Source: Nitzschia sp. pyKryTriq1 (Eukaryota; Bacillariophyta; Bacillariophyceae; Bacillariales; Bacillariaceae). From it: a DNA stretch of 64,000 bases. The position numbers and the translations under genes are program-made. Location: NCBI GenBank assembly GCA_956465555.1, contig OY101130.1, forward strand, positions 124,001 through 188,000, written 5' to 3'. Shown here in pieces: positions 35,137 to 43,541 of the stretch. Under the pieces are notes generated by a model. The model saw only the letters and a program-made list of their open reading frames with translations. It ran no database searches and was not told where the DNA came from. The stretch's first letter is position 1, and every line of letters begins with the position of its first letter.

Positions 35137-35679
35137 TTAAATGCGGCGACTCTTGCTGCTCTTTGAGGACTTTGAGCTCTTGGAGCTACTGCTCTTGGAC
35201 GAGAGGGCTCGGTGCTCTTGGTCATCGACCAACATGCGGCGACTCTTGCTGGAGGACTTTGAGCTCTTGGAGCTACTGCTCTTGGACGACTTTGAGCTCT
35301 TGGACGAGAGGGCTCGGTGCTCTTGGTCATCGACCAACATGCGGCGACTCTTGCTGCTCTTCGAGGACTTTGAGCTCTCGGAGCTACTGCTCTTGGACGA
35401 CTTTGAGCTCTTGGACGAGAGGGCTCGGTGTTCTTGTTCATCGAACATGGCTGCACCAAGAAGAGCCCCGTTCTTGGGACCGCCAGCAGCAGCAGCAGCA
35501 GCAGCATCAGCAGCAGCACGTCGGAGGTGGCTGCTGGTGGTGTAAGAGGTGAAGGAGGAGGCTTCCTCGCCATCATCGCCGCGACCAGACGTAGTAGTGG
35601 TAGGAGTAGCGCTGGCGGTGGTGGAAACCACCATGAAAGCCACCACAGTGACTTGGATCAAAGAGAGAAGTAGCTTCAT
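35137..35679 (-). CDS. Silaffin-like secreted Lys/Ser-repeat protein
   Basis: 180 residues from ATG 35679. A signal peptide spans residues 1-24 (MKLLLSLIQVTVVAFMVVST, cleavage near ASA). A Thr-rich and acidic pro-region follows (GRGDDGEEASSF), then LRRAAADA. Three tandem repeats come next at residues 79-114, 115-149 and 150-180. Each starts (F/V)D(E/D)QEHRALSS, continues with KSSKSSKSSSSKSSK-type sequence and ends in KSRRM or KSRRI. Cylindrotheca Sil1p (silaffin) has the same plan: signal peptide, acidic region, then Lys/Ser repeats each ending in RRNL/RRIL (established knowledge). Here the Lys pairs are spaced KSSK and there is little Gly or Tyr. RXL-type sites (RRML, HRAL) are candidate processing sites. 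The KXXK spacing fits the pentalysine-type clusters linked to silica deposition vesicles. A role in silica deposition is an inference; no similarity search was run. Confidence 0.8.
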   Translation of the reverse strand: MKLLLSLIQVTVVAFMVVSTTASATPTTTTSGRGDDGEEASSFTSYTTSSHLRRAAADAAAAAAAGGPKNGALLGAAMFDEQEHRALSSKSSKSSKSSSSESSKSSKSSKSRRMLVDDQEHRALSSKSSKSSKSSSSKSSKSSSKSRRMLVDDQEHRALSSKSSSSKSSKSSKSSKSRRI

Positions 35680-37012
35680 TGTGCTAGTAGTAGTAGTAGT
35701 AGTACAAGGGAATAAACAGATGCTTTTCGCTTTCTGATGATTAGAAATTGTGACCGCTTTTGCTCAGCTCTTGTCCTAATAGCGTCTCTTTCAGACAAAG
35801 ATCTTGCATTTTGTCAGTAGTAGCAAAGTCAGAAACTTCTTTCATGCCGAAAAAATGTACGGAATTCTTCTTCGGCACGTGTTGCGACTATTTGTATGTT
35901 CTTGTACTTATGGGACGACACGAGTATTTAGACTCCAGTCCTTGTACTTACTGGTAGTATAAAAAGTACAACGCATGATGCTGGCATTGGTCTTATTAAG
36001 TACCGTCGAGATGTTCTTGTCAAGGGTTTTCATTTTGTGAGGACGACTAGTACAGAACAGTAATGAGACGACAACATCATGCATCAGCATCATCATCATT
36101 CTTCAAACATGGTTACGAAGAATCATCGCTAAACTATGGTAATTAGCGATCATGACTTTTCCCAACCACTAGGCGACGACTCGCGAGGTGATCCTTCCGA
36201 CATTATCCTCTTTAAATGAACACGCTCTGTGCCATTTAGGGACACGTGTCGTTGCGTTCTGTTTTTTTTTAAACTATCTTTCCGATCGACCGCCGTTAGT
36301 TGCTGCCTTCACTACTACTACAATAGACGAAAACAGCCGTAAAATAATTCACAACTTCCACACATGTGCATCACGTTAGCTCTCCCTACTCTACTAGTAG
36401 TAGAGCATAGTAGTAGACGATATCTGTATTACAGGCTGACGTATTATTAGGATCCGATCCGACGAGCGACCGACTGGCTCACGCGACTGGTACGAGTACG
36501 AGTATAACACTACTACAGTACACCCGATCCTCGCGATCCCACCAGCAGATTATCCATCCATATCAGGACGACTCCGGAACAGCATACGTCCAAACGACGG
36601 TGGATTCTTTCTCCATTCCGGAATTGGCTGCGGGAGGAGGATGCGGTGATGATTCGTCAGAGTTGTGCTACTATTACTACCGCGTGAACCTTCGGTACTA
36701 CTACTACTAGTATTGTATTGTATTCTTGTTGTTGGTGGAGGCAATGGGAAGAAATCATTTGACAACAATGACGACGGCTACTATTTTTAGTACTACTACT
36801 ACCACTACTAGTAGAATCTCAGCAACAACAACAACAACATGATAAACAGCAGCAATACAACATGATGATCAAGGAGCAGGAAGACAGCAACAAACATTGT
36901 CGACATGACGACCATCCTGTCCCAGAAACAACAAGAATGCATCATATTTTCCTTGTTCCGCCGCAAGATTTGTAGTACATAGTCTGAGTGTTTCCTCCAT
37001 CCTTCACTTTTT
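35680..37012. other. Spacer between the two silaffin-like genes
   Basis: The promoter side of the first gene has a TAGTAGTAGTAG stretch directly upstream of its ATG. The rest is duplicated DNA (end of copy A to ~36300, start of copy B from ~36640) with CTACTAGTAGTAG palindromes near 36390. No gene seen. Confidence 0.6.
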
Positions 37013-38030
37013 TTAAAAGTGACGCTTGGAACCACTACTCTTCATTTTGCCACCACCCATCATACTACTACTCATGGAGGACATTGATTTCATGGATTCA
37101 CTCATGGATTCACTCATCGACTTTGTGCTCATGGACTTGGGGGAAAGAACTCGGTGCTCTTCATCGACCATGGTTGCACCACGAGGCCCGTTCTTGGGAA
37201 CGCCAGCAGCAGCAGCAGCGGCAGCACGTCGGAGATGGCTGCTGGTGCTGGTGTAAGTCGTGAAGGAGGAGGCTTCCTCGCCATCAACGCCGCGACCAGA
37301 CGTAGTAGTAGTAGTCGTAGTAGTAGCGCTGGTGGTGGTGGTGGAAACCACCATGAAGGCCACCACAGTGGCTTGGATCAAAGAGAATAGCTTCATAGTA
37401 GTACTGGTGGTACTAGTAGTAGTGGCTGTGGATGAAAGGATGAGTCTTCTTCTTGCTTTCTGCTGCCGATTGTTAGAAATTGTGGTCCTTTCGTGGCGAC
37501 GACCCCACGGCTGTTGCTCCTGGTCCTCATGTTTTTGTATTTTGTCCTCAAATGAATGAATGCATTTATTCTCCCAGACAAAGATCTTGCATTCTCTACT
37601 ATGTTGGGTAGTACGTCAGCATGCAGCCAAGTCAGAAACTTCCTGGAAACTATCTACATGCAGCGCGAGTCAAGCTATCAAACGCCGACGAAGAACAACG
37701 AATTATTGTATAGACTTCTTCCTCGGCACGTGTTGCTGCGACTATTCGCATATGATAATATGGTGTTCCCTTCTTGTACTTCTGGGACGACGACATGCGT
37801 ACAGTTACTTTTAGTGAGGTTATGATGATGATGATGATGATGATGATGATTGAAACGACTGATTTCTTCCACGTGACGTTTCAGTTTGTGAGGAGTGGTG
37901 AGACATATTATCATGATCATTCGTACCAAAAGAGCGATTGAAATAAATAAGGACAGACGCTCGGAGGCGATTTATGGACACGTGTCCTGCTGAACCAATC
38001 TTTCCGTCGACAACTCCGTCTGCCATGCGC
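36640..38030. repeat. Segmental duplication, copy B
   Basis: The second copy of the unit described at 34700-36300, in the same orientation, containing the second silaffin-like gene. Landmarks include GATGATTCGTCA (36650), CAGACAAAGATCTTGCAT (37575), GCACGTGTTGC (37726) and GACACGTGTC (37978). Divergence between copies is clear but landmarks align in order. Confidence 0.7.
37013..37396 (-). CDS. Silaffin-like paralogue with a Met/Ser-rich tail
   Basis: 127 residues from ATG 37396. The N-terminal ~80 residues align closely with the neighbour at 35137-35679: the same signal peptide (MKLFSLIQATVVAFMVVSTT), acidic GEEASSFTTY, SHLRRAAAAAAAG and KNG. The repeat section differs. One unit start remains (VDEEHRVLSPKS), followed by KSMSTKSMSESMSESMKSMS and a Gly/Lys end (GGGKMKSSGSKRHF). 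It therefore lacks the three Lys/Ser repeats and most Lys, with Met in place of Ser or Lys. It arose by tandem duplication (same strand, shared flanks). It is probably secreted; it may be a wall protein with altered charge, or a decaying copy. The frame is intact from start to stop. Confidence 0.75.
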   Translation of the reverse strand: MKLFSLIQATVVAFMVVSTTTTSATTTTTTTTSGRGVDGEEASSFTTYTSTSSHLRRAAAAAAAGVPKNGPRGATMVDEEHRVLSPKSMSTKSMSESMSESMKSMSSMSSSMMGGGKMKSSGSKRHF

Positions 38031-40738: not shown

Positions 40739-41726
40739 GATGATGGATACAAGGATGAATGAAAGGAAGCAAAGACGATGTGATGATATGAGGATGGATT
40801 GGAAGGATCGAGTAGTGCGGCAACTGCTGATTTTATTATGCGAGAGAGTGCATAGCAACGCGAGAGCTGATCGTAGAAAAGAAGAGCAGAATTTTCTCCT
40901 ATTATTTTTTGTACGCAGTAGTTCCTCATCGTGTGGTTTCTCATGCTAAAAAAAAGAACAACGGAATAATAGTGGCATTGCTGGGTAGTAGAAAAAAGTC
41001 TTGGCCCAACCAACTTTCTTATCATGTATAATGCCCTTTTTGGCTTTTTTCGGCTGCGAACTGAATGCCCCCCCGCCTTCATTCCGAGTGCAGAAGAGTG
41101 CTACTTCTGTACTACTTCGAGAACTACTACAGTACTTATGATGCTTCTATGACCAGGAGGCATATATTGTTGATACAAGAGAAAGGCCCTACCGTACACA
41201 TGGACTGTACAAGTACAGCACGGTACCAGTACTTTATACTGTTTCGGGGCGTGGCGAGCGTGGTACATTGATGACTGTAAGAAATTGTGTACAGATGACA
41301 ATTTGGAACGGCTGGGTTTTTGGTACAGAACCGGTACTGGTACCTGGTACGGTCGATGATGGATGGATGACCCACGCGTCCGAACGTCTTCCGAACAAAA
41401 GAAAAGGGGGGAAACGAAAATCCAAAAACGACTACTACGATTTCAGTCAGGGAAGCCAGCGGGCGACGCGGGATGATGCGATCGGACGGTGATACTTTTT
41501 ATGTGTATTTTTATTATGCACATATCAGCATGATAAATGATATAAAATTATTATTATACCTGTTATTCACACATCCTCTACTACTAGATGGGACGAAAGG
41601 AAGTTGTTCATGAGTTGCAGCAGAGCCATAATACTGCTGTAGTAGATCTTCTTGTGCGGTGATGCATCGTCGCTGGAACGAAGTGATATTATATTAGGCG
41701 ACGACCACCAGCGCAGCAGCATATAT
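40739..41726. other. Divergent intergenic region
   Basis: No gene supported. Palindromic GGTACC/CAGTAC/GTACCGG sequence is frequent (41170-41350). An upstream exon of the heparanase-like gene could lie between 41580 and 41726 but I cannot place one. Confidence 0.5.
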
Positions 41727-43541
41727 ATGACGATGCTGAAAGATGTGACGGTGGTCATCAATGGTTCCCATGCCGAGGGCGTGGTTGCGCCAGAGCTTGT
41801 CTCCTTCACAATGGACTTTTGGCCCGAACAACATGATCCTTCCTTTGCAAACTCTAGTATCACGGCGAATGCCGACCTTGGCTCTCCGGAACTTTTGGCG
41901 GCGGCCCGCGGCCTATCACCGGCGTTTCTTCGTATTGGTGGTGGATCCATGGCGGACAGTGTGCTATACCAGGTTCCCAATAATACTTCTGCCAGTACGA
42001 ACAACAACGCGACAACAGTGGAATCATCATCATTGTCATCATCATTATCATCATCACCATCATGCAATGACCCGCACACATGCCTTACAATGGATCGATG
42101 GGATGAAATCCTTCGTTTTGCTCAGGACGCCGGGGTGAGAATTGTGTTTTGTCTGGATTACCTCTATCATATCCATGACGAAACAACCGATTGGGACGGT
42201 TCCAATGCATTCGAGTTTTTAAACTACACCAAACACCATGCTCCATCACCCGGTGTGGTGTATGGCTTTGAGTTGGGAAACGAACCATTTCATACAGCTG
42301 AGAAGAATAACAACGTAACGAGATATCAACTAGCATACAAGACGTTGCGAAGCATGATTCTCGAGATTTGGCGGGACGATGATTCTTCATCAACAAGACG
42401 AAGACCAAAAGTTATCGGTCCCGCCGCAAGTGCGGGAGGACAATTTGACAAGAGTATCGCGGCTGTTGGAAAAGAGCTTGACATTGCAACGTACCATTCG
42501 TATTCGGGAGATGGTAGATCTGACTCCATTAGGAAAAAGGCCATGATGCGCGATTTCTTTGCTCCACATCCAAAGCTGGATCAGGTCTCGTCATCGGCCT
42601 TCCAATATGTGAAGGAAGGAACGGAATTGTGGCTGGGTGAGGGGGCAATGGCGATGCACTCGGGTAGAAACAAAGTGACCAACACTTTTATGGGTTCCTT
42701 TTGGTACGCACACCAGCTGGGGCTGTTGGCCAAGACTAAACCCTTGGTGAACAAGGTGTTTTGTCGTCAAACGCTCATGGGCGGATATTACGAGCTGATA
42801 TCACATGACGGACACTTTGCACCCAACCCCGACTACTGGGTAGCACGTTTGTGGAAAGAACTCATGGGCACGACCGCGCTAGATGCGTACGGGAAAGACT
42901 GCTGTGTTCCAGGAAATGATGATCTTCTTGTGCATGCCTTTTGTGCTCGACCATCCGATATTGCGGCACCTGGTGACGTGACCCTCTTGCTCATCAATAT
43001 TGCAGCCGACCAATCATTCAATGTCCAGGTTGGAGCAATAGCAGGCACTACAACTACTACGAGTAGTAGCACCAGTGGTGCGCGCCGATCGGAATTTGTC
43101 GTAGAGTCGGCAAAGGGTGCACACACCCTTGATACGAAACGCATCCATGTCAATGGTGAAACCCCAAAGCTGGGGAAAGGGGGCGAGATATTGCCACCAT
43201 TGGGCACGAAAATAAAAGAGCCGACGGACCCACTTGTCTCTTCCCCACACTCTATAATGTTCGTTGTACTGCACAATGTTTCCGCACCGAGTTGCATCAT
43301 GAAGGAAGTGGTGATGATGGATGAGGATCATCACGTTACAAAGAACACAGCAGGGTCGCACTTGTTGCTGGTACTAGTAGTATTATCAGCAGCAATTGTG
43401 ACAGCCGCGGCAATTGTCGTTTTTCTAGTCTACAACAAGAAGCGGATCTCAAAGAAGGAATATGCTGCTTTGTCCTCTTCTGACATGGAGCTGGTGGTGG
43501 TGCGAACGACGACCGAGCATAGTAGTATCATTTTGACTTGA
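41727..43541 (+). CDS. Heparanase-like glycoside hydrolase (GH79 type), C-terminal membrane anchor
   Basis: 605 residues from ATG 41727 (MTMLKDVTVVING). The frame extends upstream without an ATG, and no signal peptide is visible, so an upstream leader exon may be missing. Heparanase-like features: SPAFLRIGGGSMADSVLYQV, the barrel strand VRIVFCLDYLYHIH, the acid/base segment YGFELGNEPFHT (Glu of NEP), PKVIGPAASAGG, and the nucleophile segment TELWLGEGAMAMHSG (Glu of GEG). NTFMGSFWYAHQLG and FCRQTLMGGYYELI are also typical. A C-terminal beta-sandwich-like part is followed by a hydrophobic helix (LLLVLVVLSAAIVTAAAIVV, near residues 545-566) and a ~35-residue tail. GH79 enzymes cut uronic-acid-containing glycans; an anchored enzyme facing the lumen or outside is likely. 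The true substrate is unknown. Confidence 0.88.
   Translation: MTMLKDVTVVINGSHAEGVVAPELVSFTMDFWPEQHDPSFANSSITANADLGSPELLAAARGLSPAFLRIGGGSMADSVLYQVPNNTSASTNNNATTVESSSLSSSLSSSPSCNDPHTCLTMDRWDEILRFAQDAGVRIVFCLDYLYHIHDETTDWDGSNAFEFLNYTKHHAPSPGVVYGFELGNEPFHTAEKNNNVTRYQLAYKTLRSMILEIWRDDDSSSTRRRPKVIGPAASAGGQFDKSIAAVGKELDIATYHSYSGDGRSDSIRKKAMMRDFFAPHPKLDQVSSSAFQYVKEGTELWLGEGAMAMHSGRNKVTNTFMGSFWYAHQLGLLAKTKPLVNKVFCRQTLMGGYYELISHDGHFAPNPDYWVARLWKELMGTTALDAYGKDCCVPGNDDLLVHAFCARPSDIAAPGDVTLLLINIAADQSFNVQVGAIAGTTTTTSSSTSGARRSEFVVESAKGAHTLDTKRIHVNGETPKLGKGGEILPPLGTKIKEPTDPLVSSPHSIMFVVLHNVSAPSCIMKEVVMMDEDHHVTKNTAGSHLLLVLVVLSAAIVTAAAIVVFLVYNKKRISKKEYAALSSSDMELVVVRTTTEHSSIILT

Follow-up and report, generated by a model that had tools for sequence, protein, structure and literature searches.

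Two small genes lie in tandem on the minus strand of the window, which is the whole 64-kb stretch of DNA that was analysed. The original prediction had not said which strand carries them. Each was taken as one uninterrupted frame, with its start codon and the lack of introns assumed, and both probably encode small secreted proteins. Of the 182 frames in the window that run from stop to stop over 100 amino acids or more, that of the larger gene, gene A, is the only one with at least three K[SGT][SGT]K motifs. Neither protein matches any Pfam family at E ≤ 1, and both look disordered, by judgement. The features of the pair are as follows.

35137..35679, minus strand, including the stop codon: gene A, encoding a candidate silaffin-like precursor of 180 amino acids (open frame, paralogue, dN/dS)
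35608..35679, minus strand: signal-peptide-like N-terminus of gene A, residues 1-24, cleavage point approximate (hydrophobicity and (-3,-1) rule)
35425..35607, minus strand: pro-region of gene A, residues 25-85, Thr/Ala-rich and weakly acidic, up to the first RXL site (EHR/AL)
35341..35424, minus strand: basic unit 1 of gene A, residues 86-113 (28 residues), net charge +7
35314..35340, minus strand: acidic linker 1, MLVDDQEHR, flanked by two RXL sites, net charge -2
35236..35313, minus strand: basic unit 2 of gene A, residues 123-148 (26 residues), net charge +8
35209..35235, minus strand: acidic linker 2, MLVDDQEHR, 9 residues, identical to linker 1, net charge -2
35140..35208, minus strand: basic unit 3 of gene A, residues 158-180 (23 residues), net charge +7, ending in SRRI and then the stop codon
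37013..37396, minus strand, including the stop codon: gene B, a tandem paralogue of 127 amino acids
37016..37150, minus strand: tail (payload) of gene B after HR/VL, residues 83-127, Met-Ser-rich with KSMS/ESMS, no KxxK, net charge +5
35848..35885: CACGTG-bearing block upstream of gene A, 82% match to 37699-37736 upstream of gene B
36231..36250: second CACGTG-bearing upstream block, 90% match to 37967-37986 upstream of gene B

Gene A: leader, basic units and putative processing sites

The protein encoded by gene A starts with MKLLLSLIQVTVVAFMVVSTTASA, where the best 11-residue window reaches a Kyte-Doolittle mean of 2.53, and the heuristic combination of hydrophobicity and the (-3,-1) rule places possible cleavage sites after residues 19, 22, 23 and 24. 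The overall layout is the one originally predicted, with a start that is signal-like by this heuristic, a pro-region and three basic KSSK units. The pro-region had been described as acidic, which is an overstatement because residues 1-85 carry a net charge of merely -2 and are rich in Thr and Ala; it is weakly acidic.

The units themselves are as regular as had been claimed: EHRALSS opens all three, their ends read SKSRRM, SKSRRM and SKSRRI, and KSSK takes the place of KK, which is absent from the three unit cores. RXL sites occur at residues 85, 113, 122, 148 and 157, that is, before unit 1 and on both sides of each linker, so that RXL opens every basic unit and closes the first two. Shuffling of residues 25-180 gives a mean of 0.62 RXL sites, and none of 20,000 shuffles reached the five found in gene A; since each of the three units is a copy of the others, these five sites are not independent events. 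The distinctive feature of gene A is the pair of twin RXL sites that flanks each 9-residue acidic linker. These linkers could act as spacers that maintain the solubility of the precursor or hold the cut sites apart.

The Lys residues follow a spaced pattern, with ten K[SG][SG]K motifs in the protein. Inside single, hand-cut unit cores, the number of KxxK motifs has shuffle P values of 0.004, 0.07 and 0.03, and the departure of the Lys spacing from random order is moderate.

Gene B and the shared leader

Gene B starts with the same kind of signal-peptide-like sequence as gene A. Residues 1-89 of gene A are 85% identical to residues 4-88 of gene B (E 8.4e-24). When gene A, gene B or this 89-residue piece served as query for a protein search of the genome, nothing but the pair appeared below E 0.02. 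The weaker matches, at four places for the gene A query (E 0.02-0.99) and at one place for the 89-residue query (E 0.69), were not counted as relatives. Following the leader and the pro-region, gene B keeps one RXL site (EHRVLS) and then switches to KSMSTKSMSESMSESMKSMSS, a tail which contains neither KxxK nor a pentalysine cluster and ends in SKRHF, not in RRM(L). The RXL motif is short, and the single one of gene B (HRVL) is within chance when taken alone (shuffle P 0.11); it gains weight because it aligns with the first RXL site of gene A. The original prediction had announced tandem genes with Lys/Ser repeats and RRM(L) ends, a description that holds for gene A and fails for gene B. The possibility that gene B is a second KSSK silaffin was likewise rejected, as it has no KxxK at all.

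At the DNA level, the start regions of the two genes align at 79% over 325 bases, with additional short blocks upstream. The 88 aligned codons comprise 58 identical, 12 synonymous and 18 residue-changing pairs, which corresponds to dN of about 0.13-0.14 and dS of about 0.25-0.26, and the dN/dS of the pro-region is about 0.52-0.55. With a ratio near 0.5, slightly below 1, the pair may be read as a not very old duplicate under mild constraint. In the DNA alignment of the N-terminal part, the lengths of all six indels are divisible by three, a result that trinucleotide slippage would give as well. The combination of one leader with two different payloads makes the pair mildly unusual.

CACGTG occurs at window positions 35876, 36243, 37727, 37870 and 37979, which places 5 of the window's 14 such sites within 2.1 kb. 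All five are upstream of genes A and B, and two pairs of them are inside the blocks common to both copies; the clustering is explained in part by the duplication itself. These sites may point to bHLH or bZIP control. A genome DNA search with part of the gene A upstream region returned itself alone, and since it missed even the gene B counterpart, it is uninformative on distant copies.

Known silica proteins and the host genome

The repeats of Sil1p of Cylindrotheca fusiformis open with R-x-L-S-S-K and close with R-R-x(-L), approximately in this order. Gene A resembles Sil1p in this opening and closing, and also in its signal-like start, its pro-region and its tandem basic repeats. According to excerpts of PMC4557024, Sil1p has seven basic repeats in addition to its signal peptide and an acidic N-terminal domain, and RRIL/RRNL is missing from the mature forms of these repeats. 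Unlike Sil1p, gene A has three units, KSSK instead of KK, no Tyr or Gly in the units and a weakly acidic pro-region, and two RXL sites surround an acidic 9-residue linker where Sil1p has one RXL between repeats.

Silacidins are acidic Ser/Asp peptides. The gene A precursor is like them in having RXL-type sites at repeat ends (RXL in silacidins according to a part of PMC4557024), and unlike them in that its acidity is confined to the linkers. More broadly, RXL is reported in silaffins, cingulins, silacidins and frustulins, and excerpts of the same literature treat cutting at RXL as a hypothesis for which proof is still pending (PMC4557024; PMC5647440).

A screen for silaffin-like proteins (SFLPs) in Thalassiosira pseudonana, as outlined in part of PMC5501833, looked for a signal peptide and for KXXK motifs (X = S or G) spaced by 1-6 residues. 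Ten new proteins are given there, all ten with a protease cleavage site (RXL) and eight of the ten with pentalysine clusters (PMC5501833). When compared by motif layout, gene A is like these SFLPs in its signal-peptide-like start, its repeated K(S/G)2K and its RXL sites. The repeated KXXK appears as KSSK-SSSS-KSSK in unit 2 and as KSSK-SS-KSSK in unit 3, and the five RXL sites compare with a requirement of one or more; gene B, which has no KxxK, falls outside this class. Judged by its motifs, gene A would therefore count as silaffin-like in the published sense. Unlike eight of the ten new T. pseudonana proteins, it has no pentalysine cluster. Such clusters, five Lys in 12-14 residues, occur at least once in all known silaffins according to an excerpt of PMC9650480. 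The tightest five Lys of gene A span 15 residues, and because of this failed test, and with its silica association putative, gene A is not filed as a strict silaffin.

Cingulins offer a further comparison. In the excerpted text of PMC9650480, lysine-enriched regions are K(X)2K clusters at most four residues apart, and KSSK stretches are present in such regions of CinW2 and CinY2. Gene A likewise has lysine-enriched regions with KSSK, as grouped from its K(X)2K motif starts (90, 93; 104, 107; 127, 130, 138; 167, 170, 173). It differs from CinW2 and CinY2 (383 and 248 amino acids) in its length of 180 amino acids and in lacking Tyr- and/or Trp-rich domains, as it contains a single Tyr and not one Trp. 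KSSK in place of KK had been put forward as the mark of a distinct silaffin-like type. As KXXK (X = S or G) is already a published criterion (in the part of PMC5501833 considered here) and KSSK already occurs in cingulins (likewise PMC9650480), this claim is not supported and KSSK spacing was rejected as a new type.

The genome searched comprises 40.65 Mb in 20 contigs and very probably belongs to a diatom, as judged from its gene content. Searched for the silicic-acid transporter family, it gives eight matches, each of them above the cut-off and seven at 873-885 bits; among 14 control genomes, none had a match over the cut-off and one had a match below it. Three of the transporter matches form a cluster within about 10 kb at C1:307-317 kb. 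In addition, 72 chlorophyll-binding matches were found, counted per exon, and one of the 14 control genomes, a cyanobacterium, was also over the cut-off. For one FCP of the genome, 13 PDB matches reach E 1e-60 or lower; they are related and not identical, and the best of them is named 'Fcpb7, Fucoxanthin chlorophyll a/c-binding protein' (E 1.7e-83). Another FCP query gave more distant matches to light-harvesting chains of many kinds. An origin from a parmalean was considered as well and is far less likely than one from a diatom. Parmaleans, the sister group, have genomes of 31.0-43.6 Mb and silicic-acid transporters of their own, and silicanins are fewer in them, 0-2 versus 4-13, according to part of PMC10328945.

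Written as a DNA pattern, K-S-S-K-S-S-K is matched 47 times in this genome, and its reversed control 27 times. The reading covered loci for 30 of the 47 matches and 7 further stretches; three matches are gene A itself, and those at C9:130930, C13:186741, C14:328040 and C16:48000 were left out. Besides gene A, these loci contain 15 frames that are rich in K and have 50 amino acids or more. A signal-like start is present in the same frame in five of them, which represent four distinct loci (L022 and L025 being near-copies), and all five have RXL between this start and the Lys cluster as well as five Lys within 14 residues. The other ten lack a signal-like start in frame by the heuristic rule, and KSSK alone is therefore not diagnostic; some of them resemble intracellular proteins (L021/L024, L046), and for others the first exon may lie elsewhere or the end of the locus may truncate the frame. 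By these motifs, gene A appears to stand among other silaffin-like genes, from which it differs by the absence of a strict pentalysine cluster. The HR[AV]LS-x-K pattern has nine genome matches, three in gene A, one in gene B and five elsewhere, and these five are at chance level because the reversed control gives seven. A collection of viral contigs yielded 461 pattern stretches and no relatives; diatom genes are not expected in that collection.

Several of the loci have features of their own. Two on the same contig, L034 (C5:1.244 Mb) and L040 (C5:1.706 Mb), contain silaffin-like frames with KSSK clusters and RXL sites, and their PT-rich middles with Asp runs are near-identical while the ends differ. 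At C14:747-749 kb (L051), a short frame with a signal-like start has repeated MSMSGKGKGGKGKGG units, of which two are each succeeded by SDDD, and its Met-Ser steps recall the gene B tail. Furthermore, near-identical matches follow the same order at about 4.28-4.64 Mb of C1 and about 3.14-3.50 Mb of C3 (L021/L024, L022/L025, L070/L072), with a near-constant offset of 1.136-1.139 Mb. This suggests one of two things: that a large segment close to two contig ends was duplicated recently, or that the assembly contains duplicated haplotypes.

A putative role in the frustule

The reading we favour, at a probability of about 0.7, is that gene A encodes an RXL-processed, silaffin-like frustule peptide precursor of a diatom, and that gene B is a tandem duplicate with a different role. 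The silaffin-like label is well supported for the 180-residue gene A protein, given the diatom-type genome, the signal-like start, RXL and K(S)2K, and it does not extend to gene B, which lacks the features claimed for it. The signal peptide would take the gene A product into the ER, and cutting at the first RXL (EHR-AL) would remove the weakly acidic pro-region. Two more RXL pairs (RR-ML, HR-AL) would then free the two 9-residue acidic linkers together with three Lys/Ser peptides, each about 23-28 residues long. Lys, which recurs at every third position in runs, may be modified with polyamine or methyl groups and the abundant Ser phosphorylated; the resulting zwitterionic peptides, assembled together with polyamines, would promote the deposition of silica inside the silica deposition vesicle. 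Gene B would have arisen by tandem duplication with its leader, pro-region and RXL kept and its tail turned to Met, Ser and Lys, and since it keeps the first three and differs in the last, its product probably reaches the same compartment in a different role.

The alternative that survives best, although it is unlikely, is that gene A encodes a secreted Ser/Lys-rich surface protein, such as an adhesive, mucilage or casing glycoprotein, which is silaffin-like in its low complexity and has no role in silica. Runs of Ser could suit glycosylation, the strict pentalysine cluster is missing, and the association of gene A with silica is drawn from known families. However, repeated basic units that lie between RXL sites and show K(S)2K spacing are typical of the biosilica proteins published so far, as far as the cited excerpts go, and the order of signal-like start, RXL and Lys cluster recurs at four other loci.

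It is considerably less probable that genes A and B are repeat-expansion products of little function, descended from a duplicated secreted-protein gene whose tails drift by slippage. Such drift is in line with surroundings rich in trinucleotide repeats, with units 1 and 2 of gene A, whose DNA is 95% alike over 85 bases, with the dN/dS near 0.5, and with the different repeat, free of KxxK, in the gene B tail. Nevertheless, the Ser codons of the gene A repeat region (16 AGC, 6 AGT, 12 TCC, 6 TCG and 6 TCA) mix 22 AGY with 24 TCN, which sets the K-S-S pattern apart from a pure expansion of a codon repeat; the Lys spacing is kept while the Ser codons alternate between these two sets, and both genes retain the leader and an RXL site. 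Finally, plus-strand ORFs do overlap gene A (35141-35545, 134 amino acids) and gene B (36988-37263, 91 amino acids), but the idea that the first of these is the real gene and the minus-strand frame an artefact is very unlikely, as the minus-strand frames carry the signal-like start and SFLP-type layout and their proteins match each other from near the first residue.

A wider and rather speculative reading would have a single conserved leader for secretion and processing (signal, pro-region and the EHR-x-LS cleavage site) serve two unrelated payloads: in gene A the triple KSSK polyprotein with its acid linkers, and in gene B the peptide rich in Met and Ser. The pair would then form a prohormone-like cassette for different frustule matrix peptides, where twin RXL cuts co-release cationic peptides and short acidic counter-peptides. 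Among the silica-forming proteins of diatoms, layout is shared to a greater degree than sequence, and every new precursor in which processing sites are clear therefore helps to define the rules. The same leader with different tails offers a natural test of which part targets silica and which part shapes it, and the KSSK peptides are short enough for direct synthesis and assay. The combination of a shared leader and divergent payloads would merit more interest if both products occur in the frustule. As for the neighbourhood of the pair, an ORF at window positions 41652-43541 on the plus strand, about 4 kb away, matches the N-terminal domain of glycosyl hydrolase family 79 (E 7e-36).
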